A stretch of 64,000 nt of DNA, taken from NCBI RefSeq assembly GCF_040267705.1, contig NZ_CP158374.1:2976001-3040000 (forward strand). Reading direction: 5' to 3'. Under the pieces are notes generated by a model. It worked only from the letters and a program-made list of their open reading frames with translations. It ran no database searches and was not told where the DNA came from. Made by a program: the position numbers and the translations under genes. The stretch is from Agromyces sp. G08B096. GTDB lineage: Bacteria > Actinomycetota > Actinomycetes > Actinomycetales > Microbacteriaceae. The first letter of the stretch is position 1, and the number at the start of each line of letters is the position of its first letter. Of this stretch, positions 42,414-57,753 are shown piece by piece.

Positions 42414-43175
42414 TCAGCTCGCGACGAGCAGGGACACGGCCAGCACCGCGCCGCCGAGGCCGACGACCACGGCGGCCGCGAGCCCGCCCAGCGCGAGAAC
42501 GGCCGTGCGCCGCGAACGACGCTGCACCGACGGGAGCACCCGGTCGGCCGGTCGGGCCGCGGGCGGGCCGGCCGGGGCGACCTCCGGTGCCGGCGACGCC
42601 GCCGGCAGCTGCCGCGGACGGTAGAACTCGACGGCACCCGCGCCGGCGCCGGGCACCGAGCGGCGGAGGTCGATGGGGTCCAGGCGCAGCTGGTCGGCCG
42701 CACGACGGCCGGCCGGGCGTCGGCGCCGGACCTGGGTGACGGCGTGGGCCGACTCGTCGGCGGCATCGGCACCGTCCGGCGTCGCACCTGCGCCGGTCGG
42801 GGCCGACGGCGACCGGCGGGCGACGACCAGGGTCGCGTCCTCGGGATCGTGGAGCGCGCCGTCGCCCGGGGCGTCGCCGCCGTGCTCGCCGACGCCCGCG
42901 CCGTCGGCCGGTCGCGCCTCGGCACCTCCGCGGCGGCGGTCGACCACGACGGTCGCGTCATTCGCCGAACGGTCGACGACGACCGTGTCATCCGCGGATG
43001 CCTCGAAATCGGAAGCCTCAAGAGCGGATGCCGCGCGGTCGGACGCCCCGCGGTCCACGACCACCGTGTCGTCCACGGATGCCTCGGCCCCGTCTCCCGG
43101 CGGCCGTCGGTCGACGACGACCGTCTCGTCGATGAGTTCGTCGTCGACGAGCTCGTCATCGCCCCGCAGCGTCAT
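42414..43175 (-). CDS. Tail-anchored protein with five repeated TVVV-type threonine motifs
   Basis: 253 aa, not matched to a named family. The acidic N-terminal half repeats a short motif: DETVVVDRR, DDTVVVDRG, DDTVVVDRS, DATVVVDRR and DATLVVARR, with Thr at residues 18, 37, 64, 75 and 115. A basic segment with [13 protein letters not shown] follows. The C-terminus is a single membrane helix (VLALGGLAAAVVVGLGGAVLAVSLLVAS), so the repeats face the cytoplasm. Acidic residues before and aliphatic residues after each Thr fit actinobacterial Ser/Thr-kinase sites. The neighbours are a PP2C phosphatase and an FHA protein that shares a DETVVVAR motif. I infer a multi-site phosphothreonine docking scaffold. 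It is the last gene of the operon. Confidence 0.72.
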   Translation of the reverse strand: MTLRGDDELVDDELIDETVVVDRRPPGDGAEASVDDTVVVDRGASDRAASALEASDFEASADDTVVVDRSANDATVVVDRRRGGAEARPADGAGVGEHGGDAPGDGALHDPEDATLVVARRSPSAPTGAGATPDGADAADESAHAVTQVRRRRPAGRRAADQLRLDPIDLRRSVPGAGAGAVEFYRPRQLPAASPAPEVAPAGPPAARPADRVLPSVQRRSRRTAVLALGGLAAAVVVGLGGAVLAVSLLVAS

Positions 43176-44014
43176 CGCACGACCCGGACGGGCAGCGTCG
43201 TGGCGTCGATCGTGGACTCCGTCGACGGGGCACCGAGCCGCTCGCCCGTCGGCTCCTCGCCGACCGCCGGGCTCCCGCCCGCGACGACGTCGATCACGAC
43301 GACGGTCACGTTGTCGCGCCCGCCCGCGTCGAGCGCCCGCTTGACGAGCGCATCGGCGGCGGACTCGGCCCGCCCGGTCATGGTCAGGGTGGCCCGGATC
43401 GCCTCGTCGGACACTTCCCCGGTGAGCCCGTCGGAGCAGATGAGCAGGCGCTCCCCGGTCGTCACGGGCAGCAGCCAGCTGTCGGCGGCGCTGTCGGCGG
43501 CGCCGATCGCCCGCGTGATGACATTGCGCTGCGCGAAGTCGCGCAGCTGGTCGGGCCGGAGCGACCCTCCGTCGACGAGCTCCTGGCCGAGGCTGTGGTC
43601 GACCGTGATCTGCTGCAAGTCGGTGCCGAGCTGCCGGTACACGCGCGAGTCGCCGACGTTGAAGACGAGCCAGCAGGGCAGTCCCTCGTGCTCGATCAGG
43701 GCGACGCCCGCGACCGTCGACCCGGCCCCGCGCGCGGTGCTCGCCGCGAGCCGGGACACCTCCGTGTCGGCGAGGGCGAGCGCCGTGCGCACCGCGTCGA
43801 TGCTCGTGCGTGGCCCCTCCGGCACCTTGGAGCGGAAGGCGGCGACCACGGCTACACTCGCCCGATCGCCGGCGTCGTGACCGCCCATCCCGTCGGCGAC
43901 GACGAACGCCGGGGCGACCGCCAGGTAGGAGTCCTCGTTGCCCGCCCGCTTGCGCCCCGTGTCGGTGCGGGCACCGACGGCGAGCGTGACGGGCACCGCG
44001 GATGCCTCGCTCAC
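43172..44014 (-). CDS. PP2C-family Ser/Thr protein phosphatase
   Basis: 280 aa. All PP2C metal and catalytic blocks are present: RKRAGNEDSYL, FVVADGMGGHDAGD, GSTVAGVAL, FNVGDSRVYR, LLICSDGLTGEVSD and GGRDNVTVVV. There is no membrane helix, so it is a soluble cytoplasmic enzyme. A 30-residue Ser/Thr-containing tail follows the domain. It starts at GTG 44014 and is coupled on both sides (GTGA, ATGA). It should reverse phosphorylation by the kinase at the head of the same operon. Confidence 0.95.
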   Translation of the reverse strand: MSEASAVPVTLAVGARTDTGRKRAGNEDSYLAVAPAFVVADGMGGHDAGDRASVAVVAAFRSKVPEGPRTSIDAVRTALALADTEVSRLAASTARGAGSTVAGVALIEHEGLPCWLVFNVGDSRVYRQLGTDLQQITVDHSLGQELVDGGSLRPDQLRDFAQRNVITRAIGAADSAADSWLLPVTTGERLLICSDGLTGEVSDEAIRATLTMTGRAESAADALVKRALDAGGRDNVTVVVIDVVAGGSPAVGEEPTGERLGAPSTESTIDATTLPVRVVR

Positions 44015-45477
44015 CGGGCTGCCTCTGAGAGCCGGATGCCGACCTCGCCGAGCACGAAGCGCCCGGTGACCGGCACGGCCACGTCGGGGTCGAGGAGTGT
44101 CTCTCCGCCGTCCTCGTCGACGATGAGGACGCCGTTGGTCGAGCCGAGGTCGGTAATCGTCCATCCGCCGTCGACGTGGTCGAGCCGGGCGTGCGTCTTG
44201 GAGAGGGTGCGCGTGCGGTCGGGGACGACCAGGCGCTGCTCGCCGGCGGCGGCCGCCGGGTTCCGGCCGAGCACCACCGATGTGCCGCTCAGCTCGAGCA
44301 CGTCGCCGTCGTCGAGCACGAGCTGCCACGTGACGCGCGGTGCGCGCGCCACGACGACGGTCTCGTCGACGTCGTCGTCTTCGGGGTGCACGACGATGGT
44401 CGCCGCCTCGGCGTAGTCGAAGCCGTCGGGCGCCTCGAACGCCGGGGCGGGAGCGGGGAGCCGGTCGGGGGCTGCGGGTTCGTACGCGAGGAGGTCGGGT
44501 GCCGGCTGCGCGGGCGGTGCGGCGGGCGCACCGGGCGCCGGCGGAGCGGCGGCCGGCACGGCCGCGATCGCCTCATGGGCGGGCGGTTCCGCGAACCGGT
44601 GCGCGGGCGCCTCGGCGAAGGTCTGCGAAGGCGGCTCCGCGAGGGTGTGCGCTGCCGGTTCGTCGGCGCGGTGCTGCGACGGCGGCGGCGCGATCGGAGC
44701 GGGCGGCACGATGGGCCGCACCGGCGAGGCGGCGGCCTCCGCTCCCAGGGGGTGCGTGGCAGGCTGAAGCGGCTGCGCCGAGTCCGATGGTGCGTACGTG
44801 GGCGCGGACGCGTATCCCGCGGGCGCGGGCGCCGGGTACGCGGGCCCCACGAGCGCGACCGGCGATGCGGCCGGCGCTGCCGGTTCGGCGGGCACGGCGG
44901 AACCGGCCACGGGCGAGGTCGCCGGCGTGGCGGCTCCCGGCCACGCGGGCCACGTCGACGACGGCGCCGCCGGCGAGTTCGAGGCCGGCGCGCCCGGGTA
45001 GGCCGGGTACCCGGTCGATCCGGGCGCCACGGTCGCGAGCGGCCCGGTCGGGGCGGCCTGGCCGCCGAGCGCCGTCGCGAGACGACCGCGCTCGGGGTCG
45101 GGCGCGGTGCGCCCCCACGCGAGCAGCGTGGCCCAGAGCGGCGGCACGAGCACCGCGAGGACGGTCATGCCCACGCCGCGGCCGAACAGCGCGTTGATGC
45201 GGTGCGCGGCCATGGCGTAGAACGCGACACCCACGAGGTTGGCGATCGGCACGACCAGCAGCAGCACGAGCCACGGCGAGTAGCCGCCGAGGGCGAGCAC
45301 CTCGGCCGTGTTGACGAACGGGACCCAGCCCTTCCACGGCTCCGAGGAGAGCCGGGCGAACAGCCGCGACATCGCGAGGCCGGTCCAGACGTACAGCCCG
45401 GCGCCGACCAGCAGGTACACGAACAGCAGGACGATGGCCATCGCGGCGAGCGAGCCGGTGTCTGGCGTGGGGGTCAC
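44011..45477 (-). CDS. Membrane protein with DUF5684-like N-terminus and C-terminal FHA domain
   Basis: 488 aa. The N-terminal 115 residues hold about three to four helices (AIVLLFVYLLVGAGLYVW, PWLVLLLVVPIANLVGVAFY, MTVLAVLVPPLWATLLAW) and resemble the DUF5684 group. A Pro/Ala-rich linker of about 240 residues follows, ending in an acidic stretch with ATIVVHPEDDD and DETVVVARAPR. The last 105 residues are an FHA domain with intact phosphothreonine-binding residues: VVLGRNP, LSKTHARLD and TDLGSTNG. The DETVVVAR threonine just before the FHA domain recalls GarA-type intramolecular switching; that is inference. GTG start, GTGA overlaps at both ends. Confidence 0.88.
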   Translation of the reverse strand: MTPTPDTGSLAAMAIVLLFVYLLVGAGLYVWTGLAMSRLFARLSSEPWKGWVPFVNTAEVLALGGYSPWLVLLLVVPIANLVGVAFYAMAAHRINALFGRGVGMTVLAVLVPPLWATLLAWGRTAPDPERGRLATALGGQAAPTGPLATVAPGSTGYPAYPGAPASNSPAAPSSTWPAWPGAATPATSPVAGSAVPAEPAAPAASPVALVGPAYPAPAPAGYASAPTYAPSDSAQPLQPATHPLGAEAAASPVRPIVPPAPIAPPPSQHRADEPAAHTLAEPPSQTFAEAPAHRFAEPPAHEAIAAVPAAAPPAPGAPAAPPAQPAPDLLAYEPAAPDRLPAPAPAFEAPDGFDYAEAATIVVHPEDDDVDETVVVARAPRVTWQLVLDDGDVLELSGTSVVLGRNPAAAAGEQRLVVPDRTRTLSKTHARLDHVDGGWTITDLGSTNGVLIVDEDGGETLLDPDVAVPVTGRFVLGEVGIRLSEAAR

Positions 45478-48053
45478 GGGGTGATCTCCTTCTGGTGGAC
45501 GGCGCGTCGGGCCGTCGTGGTGCTGCGCACCCGGCCGGTGAACGAGCGGAGCGACAAGGCCATGCGGATCCGCTCTCGGGGCCGCGCGGCAGCCCTGAGC
45601 TCGGCGCGCTCGCCGTCAGCGAGCCGCCACGCCTCGTCGGCCTGCTCCTCGGTCGGGGGGAACGGCGAGAATACCGCTTCATCGACGGATGCCGCGAGCC
45701 GAACCAGCGCGGGGCGGCCGGTGCGCTGCGCCGCCGTGCGCCGGCTGGCGGCCTCCGCCATGGGGCGCCCGGCGTCGGCGTAGGCGTCCGCCACCTCGTC
45801 CCACGCGCCGAGGACACGCAGCTCGGGGTCGGGTGCCCGGCGTCGTCCGGCGCGCCGGACGGCCTTCGCGACCAGGACGGCCACGAACGGCAGGGCGAGG
45901 AACACGACGAGCGCCGCCCAGAGGCCGATGGTGCGGACGAGCTGCCACACCCAGGCGGAGGTCGCCGTCTCGTCGTCGGCGGGCGAGGTGGCGGAGGCAT
46001 CCGCGTCGTTCTGCGCCCGCTCGGGGTCGAGCGGCTCGCTGCGCGCGTCGTCGGGGACCGTGGGGTGGTGGGGCAGCTGCTCGCCCTCGGCGATCTCGGT
46101 CGGCAGTTGCGCGAACTGCGGGGTGACGTCGAGCGGCGTCCAGTCGCCGCCGGATGCGCGCACCTCCACCCACGCGGCCATCGATGCGCCGGTGCAGTCG
46201 CCCTCGCAGCCCGGCTCACCGGGCACCGCTTCCGCGCCGGGGAGCCGGACGCCGAGGGCCACGCGCGAGTCGAAGCCGAGGTGCCGGGCGAGCAGGGCGG
46301 CCGCGACCGCGAACTGCTCGTCGTCGCCCACACCGGCCACGAGGAGCGAGTCGGGCGCGCCCTCGCCCGCTCGCCGCTGCTGGTCGAGCAGCGACTCGAA
46401 GAGCGTCTCGATGCGCGACCTCGAGTGACCGGCGTAGCTCGGCAGGAAGGCGTAACCGCCCGCCTCGGCGGCGAGCGCCGCCATCCACGACTCCGTCGAG
46501 GCGTCCTCGACCAGGGCGTGGCTCAGATAGCCCCGCGCACGCAGGCGTTCGACGAGCTCGATCAGGCCGGCGCCCGTGCGCGGCTGCTCCTGCTCTTCGG
46601 CCCACGCCGTGAGCTGCGGGTAGAGCTCGGGGTCGAGCGTCCGCGCGTCGCCGGTCGCGCCGGCGAGCCGGTCGCGCAGCTCCTGCTCGGTCGCGTCCGG
46701 CCGCTCGGCCACGACCGTGTAGCGGTCGCCCGGCGCGAGGCCGACGGCGCCCGAGGCATCCGTCACCCCCTCGACCGGGGCGATGTCGACGACCTCCCCG
46801 CCGGACGCGCGGTGGAAGCCGTCGGCGAGCTCCTCGGCTCGCGCGCCGGAGAAGCGCGGTGCGGCGGCCAGGCCCGCGGGCGCCGGCACCCAGACGCCGC
46901 CGTACGCATCGCCGACCTCCACCTCGACCTCGACGAGCTCGGCGCCGACCGGCGGGTTGCGAGGGAGCCGGGCGAAGCGCGCGTCGGGGTCGACGTGGAA
47001 CACCTCGCCGTCGTAGGCGTCGAGCGTCGCGAACGGCAGCCGGCTGAGCTCGTGCACGTCGCCGTCGAGTCGCACTGCGACCTCGTCGAACCGGTCGGCC
47101 GCGAGCCAGGAGCGGTAGGCGGCCAGGGGGCTCGGCTGGCGCTGGACCACGACGGAGGGCTCGACCTGGTCGCGGAGCGCCTGCCGTTCGCCGAGGGAGG
47201 CTGCCGCGGGCGCCACGGCGACGCCGCCGACGAATGCGACGACGAGGATCGTGGCGGCCAGGGCGCGACGGCGCAGGGCGGGCAACCCGGAGCCGGCCGA
47301 CGTCCGGACCGTGCCGGCCCGTGCGCGGGCGAGCGCCCTGGCGCGGAGCATCCGGTGCCGGATCAGCAGCCAGCCGACGGCGGCCGCGACGCTCGCGAGT
47401 CCCACACCGAGCTCGCGCGGCGCCGACAGTTCGACGCCGGCGACCATGATCGGCGCACTCGTCGAGCTCGCCCCGAACGCCAGCCCGAACGCGCTCATCG
47501 CGAGCACGGGCAGCACCGCCCACGGCGCCGACCGGCCGCCGCGGAGCACGAGCATCGCCGCGGCGGTGGCGCCGGCCACCACGACCACGGTGAACGGCAC
47601 GAGGACGGCCTGGTACTCGCCGAGCGGAAGGTCGAGGGTGAGCAGCTGCTTCCAGCCGACGACGATGCCGACGATGCCGTCGCGGAGTCCGCGCACCGCG
47701 TCGGGCACCGACCGGAGCGCCGACGGGATCGACACCGGCACCACGATCACGACGTACCCGGCGAGCGCCAGGCCGGCGGCGAGGGCGGCACGCGCGACGC
47801 CGCCGCGGGCGAGGCGACGGGCGAGCACCGCCGCGCCGACGCCGACCACGAGCCCGGCCGCGGCGACGAGCAGCAGCCGCAGGGTCTCGTGGACGGGCCA
47901 CGCGGCGAGCACGGCGATCACGGTGCCGACCACGAGGTAGCCGAGCCCGACGAGCTCCTGCGGACGATCGCGCTCCCTGCGCGCGGCGAGCGCTGCGGCG
48001 CGCTTCGACCGGGCGGACCGGTCCCGGCGCGGGAGACGACGGTCGGAGTTCAC
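45474..48053 (-). CDS. TgpA-like transglutaminase-fold membrane protein lacking catalytic Cys and His
   Basis: 859 aa. Several N-terminal helices (about residues 30-270) are followed by a large extracellular region, one more helix near residue 720 and a cytoplasmic tail. The transglutaminase-core region is recognisable but the active site is lost. Active members have G-x-C-EQFA, while this protein has GVGDDEQFAVAAALLARHLG. The usual HAWVEV is AAWVEV here, and only the Asp of PLDVTPQF remains. It should therefore bind rather than cleave or crosslink. It sits in the classic MoxR-DUF58-TgpA order. The start is GTG 48053, inside the stop of the DUF58 gene. Confidence 0.88.
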   Translation of the reverse strand: MNSDRRLPRRDRSARSKRAAALAARRERDRPQELVGLGYLVVGTVIAVLAAWPVHETLRLLLVAAAGLVVGVGAAVLARRLARGGVARAALAAGLALAGYVVIVVPVSIPSALRSVPDAVRGLRDGIVGIVVGWKQLLTLDLPLGEYQAVLVPFTVVVVAGATAAAMLVLRGGRSAPWAVLPVLAMSAFGLAFGASSTSAPIMVAGVELSAPRELGVGLASVAAAVGWLLIRHRMLRARALARARAGTVRTSAGSGLPALRRRALAATILVVAFVGGVAVAPAAASLGERQALRDQVEPSVVVQRQPSPLAAYRSWLAADRFDEVAVRLDGDVHELSRLPFATLDAYDGEVFHVDPDARFARLPRNPPVGAELVEVEVEVGDAYGGVWVPAPAGLAAAPRFSGARAEELADGFHRASGGEVVDIAPVEGVTDASGAVGLAPGDRYTVVAERPDATEQELRDRLAGATGDARTLDPELYPQLTAWAEEQEQPRTGAGLIELVERLRARGYLSHALVEDASTESWMAALAAEAGGYAFLPSYAGHSRSRIETLFESLLDQQRRAGEGAPDSLLVAGVGDDEQFAVAAALLARHLGFDSRVALGVRLPGAEAVPGEPGCEGDCTGASMAAWVEVRASGGDWTPLDVTPQFAQLPTEIAEGEQLPHHPTVPDDARSEPLDPERAQNDADASATSPADDETATSAWVWQLVRTIGLWAALVVFLALPFVAVLVAKAVRRAGRRRAPDPELRVLGAWDEVADAYADAGRPMAEAASRRTAAQRTGRPALVRLAASVDEAVFSPFPPTEEQADEAWRLADGERAELRAAARPRERIRMALSLRSFTGRVRSTTTARRAVHQKEITP

Positions 48054-49504
48054 GAGATCACCCCGCGCGCGAGGAGCCGGGGCAGGTCGCCGAGCGCCCC
48101 GATGGTGATCACGGTCGCCTCGCGGGTGGTGCGCACCGTCGGCTCGGCGGCCGGCTCGCAGCGCACTGCGACGACGGCGATGCCGCCCGGCAGCGCCACG
48201 GCGGCCTGCCGGATGCGCTGCAGCGGCATCCGCGAGCCCGTCACGAGGAACACGATCGAGAGGTCGGCGAACGTCTGCGCCGCGAGCGCCGCGGATGCCT
48301 CGAGCCTCGTGATCCGCTCGCCGGCGTCGATCGCCGACATGCCGTCGAGCAGCACCCGGGGCGTGGTCGTCGGCAGCGTGCGGATCGACTGCACCGCCCC
48401 GGCCGCCTCCGGCACCTCGCCGCCGACGGCGGCGAACACGTCGCGGCCCTCGCGCACGGCCTGAAGGCCGACGGATGCCGCCGCGCTCACCGCCATCTCG
48501 AACTCGTCCTCGCTCTCGTACTCCTCCTCGGCGAGGTCGAGCAGGAGGGCGAAGCGGGCGTGCCTGGACTCCTCGTACTGGCGCACCATGAGGGTGCCGG
48601 TCTTCGCGGTCGCCTTCCAGTGCACGTGGCGCTGCGAGTCGCCGTGCACGTACTCGCGGATCGCGTGGAAGGAGAGATCGGCGTCCACGAGCGTGCCGGT
48701 CGGGGTGCCCTCGAGGTCGCGGATGAGCCCGGCGCTCGTGCTGGGGATCGCGACGGTGACCGGATGCACGTACACCCGCTGCACCTCGGGCCACGCCTGT
48801 TCGCGGCGGAGGATGCCGAGCGGGTCGCCGCGGCTCACGGTCATGGGGCCGACGTCGATGACGCCGCGCCGCTCGGCGCCGATCGTGAGGTCCTCGGCGT
48901 GCTGGGCGCCCGGCCGCAGCAGGGGCACGTGCACCTCGACGAGCCCCGCACCCACGGGGAGGTCGACGACGCCGGGGAGGGACGTGCGTCGCCCGGCGTT
49001 CACGAGCTCGAGCCGGCCGCCGACCTCGGAGCCCGCGACGACTCGGTCGCGATCGAGGTTCAGCTCGAGCCGGTAGTCGTGCTCGCCCGCGAGGAACGGC
49101 AGGGCGAGCAGCAGCAGCACGGCGGCGACGGCGGCGGCCGTCCACGCTTCCACCCAGCCGAAGGCGAGCCCGGCGGCGGAGCCGACGACGGCCACGGCGA
49201 TGAGCACCGCACCGGCGGCCGAGACGGTCTCGCGCGCACGCGCCGCACCGGAGCGGAGGGCGCGGCCGGCGCGCCGGGCACTCGCGCGCGCCCCGAGCCA
49301 GGCGCCCGCGACGCCGCTCGGCCCGCCTGCACGACGCGTGACGGTGCCCGTCCGCGTGAACGTGCCGGTGCGGGTCGACGTGCTCGTGCGGCCGAGGCCG
49401 CTCGTGCGCGTCACGCCGGCCGAGCGCGGCAGGCCGCCGGAGCGCCCGGCGGTGCCGGTGCGCCCCGTGCTGCGGCCCTGCCGCGACTGGGTGGGAGGGG
49501 TCAC
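48050..49504 (-). CDS. DUF58 (vWA-like) membrane protein
   Basis: 484 aa. An unusual first 90 residues are rich in Arg, Thr and Gly, with repeated RTGT/TRT words. A two-helix membrane hairpin (about 95-140) follows, then a DUF58/vWA-like domain with the hallmark YVHGDSQRHVHWKATAKTGTLMVRQYEE. DUF58 proteins act with MoxR AAA+ ATPases, probably as metal-dependent adhesion-type platforms for complex assembly. The start is GTG 49504, overlapping the MoxR stop. The N-terminal Thr-rich stretch could be a kinase target or a low-complexity expansion. Confidence 0.9.
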   Translation of the reverse strand: MTPPTQSRQGRSTGRTGTAGRSGGLPRSAGVTRTSGLGRTSTSTRTGTFTRTGTVTRRAGGPSGVAGAWLGARASARRAGRALRSGAARARETVSAAGAVLIAVAVVGSAAGLAFGWVEAWTAAAVAAVLLLLALPFLAGEHDYRLELNLDRDRVVAGSEVGGRLELVNAGRRTSLPGVVDLPVGAGLVEVHVPLLRPGAQHAEDLTIGAERRGVIDVGPMTVSRGDPLGILRREQAWPEVQRVYVHPVTVAIPSTSAGLIRDLEGTPTGTLVDADLSFHAIREYVHGDSQRHVHWKATAKTGTLMVRQYEESRHARFALLLDLAEEEYESEDEFEMAVSAAASVGLQAVREGRDVFAAVGGEVPEAAGAVQSIRTLPTTTPRVLLDGMSAIDAGERITRLEASAALAAQTFADLSIVFLVTGSRMPLQRIRQAAVALPGGIAVVAVRCEPAAEPTVRTTREATVITIGALGDLPRLLARGVIS

Positions 49505-50466
49505 GCCGCGCCGTTCTCCCGCGGGGCTGCGACGTCGAGGAGGATCTGGCCGATGACGGCCACGGCGGTCACTCCGTCGAACTCGGCCTCGGGTTCGAGC
49601 ACGAGGCGGTGGGCGAGCGCCGGCACCGCGAGCTCACGCACGTCGTCGGGGGTCGCGTAGGCGCGACCGTGCGCCGCCGCCCACGCCATCGCCAGGCGCG
49701 ACAGGGCGATCGCGCCGCGGACGCTGACGCCGAGCCGCACCTCCGACGCGCGCCGCGTGGCGTCGACGAGCCGCATGACGTAGTCCGAGACGAGCGGGTT
49801 CACGTAGACGCCGCGCGCGAGATCGGTCATCGCGACGATCGTGTCGGTGGAGGCGACGGCGGAGAGGTCGCGTCGCGGGTTCGCGACACCCTGGAGGATG
49901 CGCAGCGTCGCCGCCTCGTCGGGGTAGCCGACGGAGGTCTTGATCATGAACCGGTCGAGCTGCGCCTCGGGGAGACGGTACGTGCCGCCCTGCTCGATCG
50001 GGTTCTGCGTGGCGATCACGAGGAACGGGTCGCCGACCTTCCGGGTCACGCCGTCGACCGTGACCTGCCCCTCCTCCATCACCTCGAGCAGCGAGGACTG
50101 GGTCTTCGGGCTCGCCCGGTTGATCTCGTCGGCGAGCACGATGTTCGCGAACACCGGGCCCGAGTGGAACTCGAACTCGCCGCGCTTCTGGTCGTACACC
50201 GTGATGCCGGTGACGTCGCCCGGCAGCAGGTCGGGCGTGAACTGGATGCGCGAGTTCGTGCCGGCGATCGTCTGCGCGATCGCGCGCGCGAGCGCGGTCT
50301 TGCCCGTGCCGGGGAAGTCCTCGAGCAGCACGTGGCCGCCGGCGACGGCGGTCGCGAGGACGAGCTCGACGACGTGGCGCTTGCCGAGCACCGCCTGCTC
50401 GACGTTGTCGGCGATGAGCGAGAAGGTCTCGGCGAACCAGGCGGTCTGCGCGGGAGCGAGCGTCAT
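49501..50466 (-). CDS. MoxR-family AAA+ ATPase
   Basis: 321 aa. Walker A is EDFPGTGKTALARAIA, Walker B IVLADEINRASPKTQSSLLEVMEE, sensor 1 FLVIATQNPIEQGGTYRLPEAQLDRF, with a MoxR lid domain at the end. MoxR ATPases act as chaperones that assemble or activate partner complexes, usually with DUF58/vWA proteins, one of which is encoded next. GAAGGA lies upstream of ATG 50466. The ATG overlaps the stop of a possible 43-codon reading frame (ATGA at 50463-50466). Confidence 0.96.
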   Translation of the reverse strand: MTLAPAQTAWFAETFSLIADNVEQAVLGKRHVVELVLATAVAGGHVLLEDFPGTGKTALARAIAQTIAGTNSRIQFTPDLLPGDVTGITVYDQKRGEFEFHSGPVFANIVLADEINRASPKTQSSLLEVMEEGQVTVDGVTRKVGDPFLVIATQNPIEQGGTYRLPEAQLDRFMIKTSVGYPDEAATLRILQGVANPRRDLSAVASTDTIVAMTDLARGVYVNPLVSDYVMRLVDATRRASEVRLGVSVRGAIALSRLAMAWAAAHGRAYATPDDVRELAVPALAHRLVLEPEAEFDGVTAVAVIGQILLDVAAPRENGAA

Positions 50467-50594
50467 GGGTGGTCCTTCACGGAGTCGGTTCGGTCGGGCT
50501 GGGAGGCGGAGGCGGAGGCGGAGGCGGAGGCGGAGGCGGTGGCGGTGCTGGAGCCGACGATCCGGCTCGAGGAGCGGACGGTCGTGGCGGTCAT
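50463..50594 (-). CDS. Possible 43-aa Ser-Ala repeat peptide bridging the Ig-protein and MoxR genes
   Basis: Short frame starting at ATG 50594, which overlaps the stop of the Ig-domain gene (ATGA), and ending in TGA that overlaps the MoxR start (ATGA). It would encode an N-terminus MTATTVRSSSRIVG, then a run of alternating Ser and Ala from a GCCTCC hexanucleotide repeat, and end QPDRTDSVKDHP. No family is recognised. The exact fit of both ends to the overlap pattern of the whole operon is the main argument for it. It could also be only a translational bridge that keeps ribosomes moving to MoxR, or an accident of GC-rich sequence. Confidence 0.4.
   Translation of the reverse strand: MTATTVRSSSRIVGSSTATASASASASASASQPDRTDSVKDHP
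50502..50543. repeat. GGAGGC hexanucleotide microsatellite
   Basis: Six perfect GGAGGC units (50502-50537) followed by one GGTGGC variant. On the minus strand it reads as Ser-Ala codons in the 43-codon frame. The plus strand is purine-rich and could form G-quadruplex-like structures. Slippage would change length by whole codon pairs, keeping the frame. Confidence 0.9.
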
Positions 50595-56500: not shown

Positions 56501-56617
56501 CTCGTACCCCGTCGCGACGACGGCGAGCGTGGCGACCACGCCGACCGCGGCGATCCCGGCGACCGCGGCGATGATCGGGGCGCGCCGTCGGGCGGAGCGC
56601 TCGGCGGCGGCTCGCAT
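50591..56617 (-). CDS. Giant surface protein with propeller-like, Ig/cadherin-like and Fn3-like repeats
   Basis: 2,008 aa. A short basic cytoplasmic start and one membrane helix (about 14-36) are followed by an all-extracellular body. Residues about 40-420 have repeated short beta segments like a propeller (SSVWVTRDDGRYARV, AAAVGVSPDGDLAAYSA). The central 1,100 residues are Ig/cadherin-like repeats of the form VTVRAGGLATIPVLANDVSP. Cys-bearing segments and Fn3-like domains follow, and a Gly/Thr-rich tail ends the protein without an LPxTG signal. It starts one base into the kinase stop codon (TGATG), so the two are made together. I infer that it is the external sensing or adhesion partner of the kinase, which has no sensor of its own. 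Confidence 0.88.
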   Translation of the reverse strand: MRAAAERSARRRAPIIAAVAGIAAVGVVATLAVVATGYESQEVPRLESSVWVTRDDGRYARVNTELAELDTVRSVDDPTTVVQSGAAGVVYSGGLRQRWALDPAAPLDLVGGQSGEADAGAEAGTGGGASVAPVSDAGPAAVADPTPAGTREVSAAGRYVVYRTDTGRIFLGGLDAPGAAPIDPLATEAEEGEEPVVYTAAAVGVSPDGDLAAYSATEGAVRRFDATSLESGTPEELEDPPAADAELDLAMAGSNWVLLDAAGGRAWVAGRAEPVEVDVEADAVLQEGAAGGDVVYTADSAGLVAIPVDGSAPERVLEADGVPAAPVVVGEEALAAWVGQGGGTAWSSVSGEHALEVPQETLEQAAQITPVIRSNGDRAVLNEPATGLVWTLPDGRLVPLEQWSVDDDTEEREGTTVVEDVAEQRPPVAVADSFGVRAGELVSLPVLLNDHDPNRSDVLTIAADQVTGLDVEGFGEVAVVSNGQAFAVRVAATSGTARFSYAVTDGQQASPPVTVTLTVVPDDQNSAPAWCGVDACTQHWPSPEILPGGTLLVPVLDGWVDPEGDAFVLADARADDSAAPVTVVPRADGRLAVRHTDPNAADGEIGITLTVVDARGATAERALVVRASGRPAITADRIAVAAAVGETVSVDVAEHVVGGSGSFQLVDAVASGAAAGLAVTPNASSGQVELSATEPGEYVVGYTVADTVSQAEQSATIRLSVVPGGRPLAIAPMTAYVRPGEDTTIDVFGAVQNATGRVLLVSGARSSSPELTVGVVASSHVRLGVMGGTAVGRALVGRADVTVTDGSGQAVTGVVSVFLAADAGDDAPIALPDSVTVRAGGLATIPVLANDVSPRGARLVVQHEVQGSGAKGELAFTSGDTVRYVAPDSPGTYRLRYAVAMESHPDRLDYADIAVTVLPGGANRPPRPPVLSARVLSGQTVEIPVPDYGVDPDGDRVVLAGVEQPGAGLGTASVAAEGDTVVYHAPADGVDGGQLSFAYTVRDPEGAESVGVIRVGVLAAELADAAPVTFSDYARATRGAQAPVQLTPLANDRDPALGRLELVSVEPNAPAGTAEYDRLAALVDDAALGDGVVALRAGDVAGTNSYVYTVRSARTSSTAQGLIVLAVGESAAVDHPVVADTVVTARTRTEFEAKGLDVVTGRVRWATGDIRGLTLAIWGDAAERYRVDGWKVSGELPRNGELVPFELSGDDAAGNPVVAYGLLRIPAFDDMPVQLRADIDPIQVKEERSAAFDLRKLVDLPAGDDIRLDAGPFATQREAATCRPTGAREATYDAGREAPWSDSCLVPLRIDGQSRWSYVVVPVEIEPKDPQAILTAISRTVPPGASERVDLYRDLTTWEGGREGDRSRLDYRVDYGGSAFTMTRAGEEVVFEARADAQPGTRETATVTVPGFGGITATITVVVGIAPPDAPRGATLTRECTVSAGSCTIEVVGVSGEYDPFAGKQGAGLTLTGVGSGGGVVCDVASVQSAGRTAVVATFPGGQSAFGGQCAVPFTVADAQGRTGTGSLTIDVLGYPQRPGSITTSRYTGDSVTLDVTLGDALKAHPPLTGVVIQQDGRPAGANCAPSLAGVYSCVVGGLLNGEKHQFTARAVNSVGESLETSAETSWAYQAPQVEVAEATAVYVEGQTTQSNAVVDLTLRGTGDTQAFRLAERNQTIQAPGGQASLRLDVPPGSFLVTVVPVSRFEPPIDGSSDGASKVASTTAAGAPTIDGISAGPASNTSIVVSGGAVGANHSAKPIEVRYIAWRGGGEPRCSVGPTGGGLQVDGGEVVSTSSTISGLQQYKRYAVKACGSNGFGVVSSNIAETRTFVDAPPPNGGLSYSVATSPTRDGNVYRYGLQSAPQPTGLPEGFAPQFYLYGQWRGDFVLSDESAPVGVKARGCSTDWWSNDCTGEAAVSAATAPTTVTVTFPAECRPAAKAEDVTVTQAARGAATVAVVTGTDGVERYTVTFGGAYAALAPIEVPTEKCAGPPPGEGGGETDTGGTGTTP

Positions 56618-57753
56618 CAGATGACCCCGAGCACGCGGGCCACGATGAACCCGCCGACGACGAGCGTGACCGCGACGCCGGCGCCGATGAGACCGGCGGC
56701 CACGCCGCCGAGGCTCCGGCGGCTCGCGGCGACCGGCAGGCCGTCGCGGTCGGTGCTGCCGGGCTCGATGCGCTTGGAGAGCCGGGTCGCCCGCCGGGAG
56801 TCGGGCTGCACGGTGGTGACGACGGGCCCGCGGAACGAGGAGTCGGAGAAGCGCACGGGGGCCGCGCCGGCCCACTCGGGCGAGATGACCTCGAACGGCG
56901 TCGGCGGGAGGCCGAGCTCTGCCTGCACCTGGCGGAGCCGCTCGGCGAACGCGGCCATGCTCGGGTAGCGCTTCTGCGGGTCGCGCGCCATCGCGGTCGA
57001 CAGGAGCTGGTCGACCTGGGCCGGCATGCCGGGGATGGGCAGGGGCGTGTACCCCGCCTTGACGATGCGGCGGGTGAGCTGCTCGCGCGTGTTCCGCGAC
57101 CGGTCGGCGACCTCGAAGGGGCTGCGCCCGGCGAGCAGGGTGTAGAGCGTCGCGCCGAGGCTCCACACCTCGGCGGCGACCGAGCCCGACACCTCTTCCT
57201 TCAGCACCTCGGGCGCGCTCCACGGCACGCTCATGGCGAAGACCTCCGCCTCGCCGGCTTCCGCGGCCCGGGCCGCGGCGATGCCGAAGTCGGCGAGCAC
57301 GGGGGCGCCGAGCGCGTTGACGAGCACGTTCGAGGGCTTGATGTCGCGGTGGAGGAGGCCCGAGCGGTGCGCCGTCTCGAGGGCTCCCGCGAGGCGCACC
57401 CCGGTGTCGAGCGCCTCGGGCAGCGACAGCGGCTGCCGCTTCGCGCGCGCGCCCATGGTGTCGGGGCAGTACTCCATGGCGAGGTACGGCCGGCCGTCGG
57501 CCGAGACCGATGCCTGGTAGATGGTGACGATGGCCGGATGCGCCGAGAGCCGGGCCGAGACATCCGCCTCGGCGTTGAACGCGCGCCGCACCTCGGGGTC
57601 GAGCGCGTCGGCGAGCAGCACCTTCACGGCGGCGAGGCGGCGGGGCATGTCCTGCTCGTAGAGGAAGACATCGGCGAAGCCGCCGGCGCCGAGCGGCCGC
57701 ACGTAGGCGTAGCCGGCGAGCACGGGCGGCGTCGCCGTCATCCGTCTCGCCAC
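56617..57753 (-). CDS. Membrane Ser/Thr protein kinase without an extracellular sensor domain
   Basis: 378 aa. The kinase domain (about 12-285) is complete: Gly loop PLGAGGFADVFLYE, Lys in LAAVKVLL, catalytic loop HRDIKPSNVLV, DFG in LADFGIAAA, and APE in PWSAPEVL. Unlike PknB-type kinases, the activation segment between DFG and APE has no Thr (only a Ser in AMSVPW). A basic juxtamembrane linker leads to one C-terminal helix (GLIGAGVAVTLVVGGFIVARVLGVI), which ends the protein, so no PASTA or other outer domain exists. I start at GTG 57753 with GAGGA upstream; ATG 57741 is an alternative. It heads the nine-gene operon. Confidence 0.93.
   Translation of the reverse strand: MARRMTATPPVLAGYAYVRPLGAGGFADVFLYEQDMPRRLAAVKVLLADALDPEVRRAFNAEADVSARLSAHPAIVTIYQASVSADGRPYLAMEYCPDTMGARAKRQPLSLPEALDTGVRLAGALETAHRSGLLHRDIKPSNVLVNALGAPVLADFGIAAARAAEAGEAEVFAMSVPWSAPEVLKEEVSGSVAAEVWSLGATLYTLLAGRSPFEVADRSRNTREQLTRRIVKAGYTPLPIPGMPAQVDQLLSTAMARDPQKRYPSMAAFAERLRQVQAELGLPPTPFEVISPEWAGAAPVRFSDSSFRGPVVTTVQPDSRRATRLSKRIEPGSTDRDGLPVAASRRSLGGVAAGLIGAGVAVTLVVGGFIVARVLGVI

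Follow-up and report, generated by a model that had tools for sequence, protein, structure and literature searches.

Does a membrane-bound Ser/Thr kinase that carries no sensor of its own, and no threonine in its activation loop, take its sensing part from the protein encoded by the next gene? This question is raised by a kinase gene in the window, by which we mean the whole stretch of 64,000 nucleotides from Agromyces sp. G08B096 that was analysed. An earlier note on this DNA had proposed a split receptor, with kinase and sensor as two polypeptides that pair through their membrane helices. The kinase heads eight genes on the same strand, running from 57753 down to 42414:

56617-57753, minus strand: Ser/Thr kinase (Hanks type) of 378 aa, with a GTG start, no inner stops and a C-terminal membrane helix
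50591-56617, minus strand: giant single-pass protein of 2008 aa, with a short basic inner tail, a helix at aa 15-33 and Big_9/cadherin-like Ig repeats
49501-50466, minus strand: MoxR-type AAA ATPase, by domain match
48050-49504, minus strand: DUF58 protein, by domain match
45474-48053, minus strand: multi-pass membrane protein with a transglutaminase-like core, by hydropathy and domain match
44011-45477, minus strand: membrane protein carrying DUF5684, DETVVVAR (at aa 371) and, at its C-terminus, an FHA domain
43172-44014, minus strand: PP2C-type Ser/Thr phosphatase, by domain match
42414-43175, minus strand: TVVVDR protein, named for its five acidic T-(V/L)-V-V-x-R repeats; both these and a hydrophobic C-terminal stretch were read from sequence

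The product of 56617-57753 matched Pkinase in a Pfam search (E 1.7e-38) and its AVKVL, HRDIKPSN and DFG motifs are all intact, so that the ATP lysine, HRD-K-N and DFG motifs together with the Pkinase domain place it among the Hanks-type kinases. The best solved-structure match by sequence was 3f69 (E 1.5e-29), and the protein scored 149.9 bits against a PASTA-kinase cut-off of 450. A hydrophobic segment of 19 residues (hydropathy 2.42) starts at aa 360 and runs to the end of the protein, which bears out the earlier description of a kinase that stops at its membrane helix with no outer domain; just one other segment exceeded 1.6 (aa 143, 1.72) and it lies inside the kinase fold. No PASTA or other outer sensor was found on the kinase chain by hydropathy and domain searches. 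A structure model of the kinase built from two sequences had a mean pLDDT of 36.3 and was left unused.

The junction with the next gene reads GTCATCTGATGCGAGCC, where the ATG of the giant begins on the last base of the kinase stop codon (TGATG). The N-terminal hydrophobic segment of the giant is followed by roughly 1,970 residues, in agreement with what had been noted of this gene, and a second, weaker hydrophobic segment (aa 1407, 1.74) falls in the repeat region. An AlphaFold2 model of aa 30-430, built from two sequences, had a mean pLDDT of 48.3; between aa 200 and 319 the means by block were 75-87, apart from one block at 62. A Foldseek search with this model gave 204 matches at E <=0.001; most of those listed have titles of propeller proteins, and the PknD sensor 1rwi ranks 42nd. 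A re-check of Foldseek's own candidates by VIA-align gave Z up to 13.6, and here too most of the titles listed are those of WD40 and other propellers. The model thus suggests, with low confidence, that the first, membrane-proximal outer domain of the giant (about aa 145-379) is a beta-propeller with the fold of the PknD sensor. Pfam placed Big_9 and cadherin-like domains downstream of the predicted propeller; no fn3 match was found in this protein at E 0.01. A relative of the giant occurs in Leucobacter musarum (Microbacteriaceae), in which the kinase DNA is identical to that of L111, a locus that falls in the window's family by genome search.

Genes overlap at six of the seven junctions of the operon, by 1 base between kinase and giant and by 4 bases at the five others, and the sole intergenic gap, of 124 bases, lies between the giant and MoxR genes. 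Stop/start overlap is therefore the rule across the operon and the kinase-giant overlap alone is not special. This favours an alternative in which the helix serves the kinase only as a membrane anchor, with no pairing to the giant: the coupling of the two genes would reflect a tightly packed operon, the giant would be a structural surface protein or else a client on which the MoxR/DUF58/transglutaminase machine acts, and the kinase would sense internal or operon-internal cues via FHA partners. We regard this alternative as a serious one, while leaning somewhat against it, and its other evidence is given below. A hexamer repeat (GGAGGC, 7.3 copies, 50502-50553), possibly variable in length, lies in the giant-MoxR gap just upstream of the MoxR gene. 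The TVVVDR protein at the end of the operon had no Pfam or NCBIfam match; we propose from its repeats that it may be a scaffold phosphorylated on several threonines and a ligand for FHA domains. Called ORFs with at least two repeats of the TVVVDR type were seen at 3 of 10 clade A-type loci scanned (L040 with 10, L048 with 3 and L041 with 2).

The genome has eight Pkinase matches, three of which belong to the family of the window kinase (identity of at least 50 percent together with an SxPW motif), and each of these is accompanied in its cluster by genes for a giant, MoxR, DUF58 and a transglutaminase. At E 0.001 or better the genome has 21 Big_9 matches, every one of which lies in one of the three giants, with one giant per kinase cluster. 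In the tree described below the window kinase is of type A, that at C1:2240172 (L050) of type B and that at C1:1393554 (L055) of type C; the last two keep 91 and 110 residues after the helix respectively and the window kinase none. Pfam gave no name to the outer domains of the L050 and L055 kinases, a single MMPL match below cut-off being taken as chance. The L055 cluster has an FHA-like gene between kinase and giant, and an fn3 domain was matched at 1499-1579 of its giant, near the reported place of the bifidobacterial FN3. FtsK/SpoIIIE ATPases stand beside some B- and C-type clusters (L050 2542-5475, L056 12659-17131, L059 3-3896; two of the three with an FHA domain) and are reminiscent of the ATPases of type VII secretion. 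A link of the kinase module to type VII secretion was dropped, the WXG100 matches of the genome lying elsewhere and the window holding 0 FtsK matches.

Kinases of at least 62 percent identity were found in at least 10 of 25 genomes of the genus. With types A and B counted jointly, at least 271 of 398 genomes in the window's taxonomic family had a match at E 1e-85 or better. We collected 120 kinase records, one per distinct C-terminal end, from 145 loci that were chosen from the top of the match lists and not at random (the B rows by hand), and placed 116 of them in a FastTree tree, having dropped four: L125 (a 99-aa fragment), L034 and L120 (both partial) and L080 (frame-shifted); the counts leave out loci L146-L165, L166-L169 and L170-L199. 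L080 had been considered as a kinase-giant fusion and was rejected, its frame shift falling just before the helix so that helix and end lie in another frame; the shift may be a sequencing error or real. Clade A (71 rows, SH-like support 98) consists of kinases that all end 0-9 residues after the helix. In clade B (38 rows, support 88), 33 kinases keep 88-95 residues after the helix and five have no real outer domain (two with the helix only, one with 18 residues and two without a helix), while the seven outgroup rows, set C, keep 110-137 residues. A single-pass ORF starts within 31 bases of the kinase stop in all 71 clade A and all 38 clade B rows, sharing bases with the stop codon in 52 and 30 of them respectively. 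None of the seven set C kinases is coupled in this way; in L058 the giant follows directly, but 118 bases off. Giants were seen in set C loci L055, L057, L058 and L059 and not matched in L056, and the flanks of L036 and L038 were too short.

Among 21 loci read at length, the order kinase-giant-MoxR-DUF58 was found in 20, with a transglutaminase matched downstream in 17 of these 20 (the other three being L042, at a contig end, L057, at the end of the stretch, and L058, with a weaker match only). The one exception is L056, where MoxR, DUF58 and transglutaminase precede the kinase and a giant was not matched. A kinase without the Ig protein, the case named earlier as one that would tell against a split receptor, occurred in 0 of the 109 clade A and B kinases. 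A reciprocal search with the giant gave matches in 135 of 249 genomes, eight of which were read individually; six were candidates for a giant without a kinase (G044, G188, G059, G084, G198 and G234) and two were extras (G085 and G122), and all eight proved to have a kinase in the same cluster. It stands directly before the giant in five (G044, G188, G234, G085 and G122) and at the far end of the cluster, beyond the transglutaminase, in the other three (G059, G084 and G198). Such displacement, as in L056, is what anchoring without pairing would allow, yet these three relocated kinases carry outer domains, with 108-114 residues after the helix. A search for fused kinase-giant genes, named earlier as a check on the split receptor, found none among the matches listed, the longest ORF with a kinase match being 1305 aa and a distant kinase.

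Taken over both searches, every kinase without an outer domain is coupled to the giant (79/79, made up of 71 from clade A, five from clade B, and those of G044, G188 and G085), and every non-coupled kinase has an outer domain (10/10, the seven of set C and the three relocated). This pattern is the strongest evidence for the giant taking the place of the absent outer domain, and it argues against a kinase that is anchored and nothing else. The association of outer-domain loss with coupling rests on few events, as the gain and loss of the domain need a minimum of three changes on the tree, and 33 of the 38 clade B kinases are coupled yet have kept the domain.

Pairing through the membrane helices fared less well. 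Over 1939 clade A pairs with 50-65 percent core identity, the identity of the kinase helices was 0.231 against 0.203 when shuffled, and that of the giant helices 0.316 against 0.216. Co-variation of the two helices was not detected (partial correlation given core identity 0.026 in clade A and 0.135 in clade B), this being a weak test on 71 related clade A sequences. Moreover, the kinases of L121, L124 and L206 have neither helix nor outer domain and still stand directly before the giant. Because the kinase helix is hardly conserved and does not co-vary, and kinases without it stay coupled, helix pairing, though it may still occur, is not supported, and these same three points favour anchoring without pairing. 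Of the split receptor proposed earlier, what holds is thus the arrangement, an outer-domain-less kinase directly before a single-pass ORF in 71/71 clade A rows and domain loss seen solely where the two are coupled, and what lacks support is the helix-to-helix contact, against which the overlaps at five other junctions also count. Kinase and giant may plausibly form one two-part receptor, their contact being putative.

The activation loop of the window kinase, DFGIAAARAAEAGEAEVFAMSVPWSAPE, has no Thr between DFG and APE, as had been noticed, and the observation was understated, since Ser is also absent ahead of the Ser of SVPW. The pair of threonines typical of PknB (activation-loop phosphorylation sites T171/T173; PMC6428115) was thus not found in this loop, and Thr is present in the loop of all five other Ser/Thr kinases found in the genome. 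Lack of Thr from DFG to the final PE was seen in 40/71 clade A, 3/38 clade B and 0/7 set C kinases, and lack of both Ser and Thr before SxPW in 13/71 (the window kinase included), 0/38 and 0/7. The P+1 region is SxPW instead of the usual GTxxY in all 116 members of the tree (71+38+7) and in 0/5 of the other kinases of the genome; the kinase of G044, outside the tree, has TIPW at this place. Thr occurs four positions before the P+1 Ser, which we take to be the site of the loop Thr of eukaryotic PKA, in 8/71 clade A and 1/38 clade B kinases. A loop Thr is therefore held at no fixed place across the family and the window loop is an extreme case of it; the family does not keep the standard loop switch. 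A literature search found no precedent, by title or abstract, for bacterial kinases lacking activation-loop Thr.

An alternative account of this loop, which is compatible with pairing to the giant, is that acidic residues mimic the phosphate, so that the kinase would be constitutively active and checked only by the PP2C phosphatase and by its localisation. Asp or Glu does stand five positions before the P+1 Ser in 51/71 clade A and 34/38 clade B kinases, and a PP2C is encoded in the operon, but by an ungapped count back from P+1 this position is out of line with T171/T173 of PknB and the mimicry is a guess; we hold this account to be rather unlikely. That the kinase is degenerate or weakly active, a pseudokinase-like scaffold, would explain the missing loop Thr, and the 13 clade A members with neither Thr nor Ser before SxPW speak for it. 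We hold this to be very improbable and reject it as the main reading because the catalytic motifs are intact (HRDxKP(S/T)N in 71/71 and the ATP lysine motif in 70/71 clade A kinases, with DFG kept). Pkb2 of a similar bifidobacterial operon is, moreover, reported to be functional (PMC6803598, PMC8430577).

The linker between kinase fold and helix holds Thr in all 116 tree members, a weak observation given that linkers are long stretches. In clade A it often resembles RGPVVTTV (50/71, or 48/71 with a narrower pattern) and 30/38 clade B linkers show an acidic-T-R-(I/V)-like pattern; these motifs could be docking sites for FHA domains.

The reading that we prefer, at slightly less than an even chance, is that of a membrane-tethered kinase of a PFNA-like operon for which the giant is the sensing part, the two being one receptor assembly under clustering or allosteric control with an FHA/PP2C/MoxR output. 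Kinase and giant would be made together and act as a single assembly, the giant supplying the outer sensing part as a propeller and Ig repeats anchored beside the kinase. The kinase would be controlled via clustering or allosteric contact and not by phosphorylation of an activation-loop Thr, and most of its autophosphorylation would take place in the inner linker that precedes the helix, at the RGPVVTTV motif, creating docking sites for the FHA protein that the PP2C would reset. As output, the kinase would phosphorylate MoxR or the TVVVDR scaffold, which would then steer the DUF58/transglutaminase machine at the cell surface. A more specific version is in our view doubtful: the bare-helix kinase would have as its partner a separate sensor with about 1,970 outer residues (propeller and Ig), would be switched by assembly without loop phosphorylation and would signal via a tail-anchored scaffold whose tandem TVVVDR motifs the FHA protein reads.

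Among the known systems nearest to it is the bifidobacterial PFNA operon, described as pkb2-fn3-aaa-atp-duf58-tgm with prpC and fha in some species (PMC8430577, PMC10688814); phosphorylation of the operon's own MoxR by Pkb2 has been reported (PMC8430577). According to the published descriptions, PFNA shares with the window a kinase, a single-pass surface protein of about 2000 aa, MoxR, DUF58 and transglutaminase as well as PP2C and FHA genes, all in one direction. It differs in that Pkb2 has a variable outer C-terminal region, absent from the window kinase, that the window giant gave no fn3 match, and that the window belongs to another family with three clusters in one genome. Since the window giant gave no fn3 match and the window kinase has no outer region, we file the cluster as PFNA-like and not as a member of PFNA. 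A literature search for PFNA-type operons listed no paper on the family of the window kinase by title. On the evidence of sequence and gene order, the kinase-giant arrangement is real and conserved and is a variant of a PFNA-like receptor-kinase module. PFNA has been interpreted as a means by which bifidobacteria communicate with the immune system of animals, and its occurrence is stated to be confined to bifidobacteria (PMC10688814). The recurrence of this gene order in 20 of 21 loci from other genomes within the order, the family matches in at least 271 of 398 family genomes and the three clusters in one genome suggest that the module, its likeness to PFNA being taken from published descriptions, may have a general surface or envelope role beyond bifidobacteria.

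The B and set C kinases of the same genome (L050 and L055) also have SxPW, a giant Ig protein, MoxR, DUF58 and transglutaminase, and they differ from the window kinase in the residues that they keep after the helix. With the PknB/PASTA kinases the window protein shares the kinase domain, 3f69 being its best solved-structure match, but it has no PASTA part and no Thr like T171/T173, and SxPW replaces GTxxY. Mycobacterial PknD has a kinase and a beta-propeller outer sensor as its functional parts (PMC3601408). In PknD these lie on a single chain, whereas the propeller-like domain predicted in the window, with low confidence, is on a second polypeptide with added Ig repeats. A clade without a sensor, in a family without the standard loop switch, would make a test case for the control of a receptor kinase by a partner chain, and the proposed two-chain arrangement of kinase and sensor is loosely like that of immune receptors with separate ligand-binding and signalling chains.
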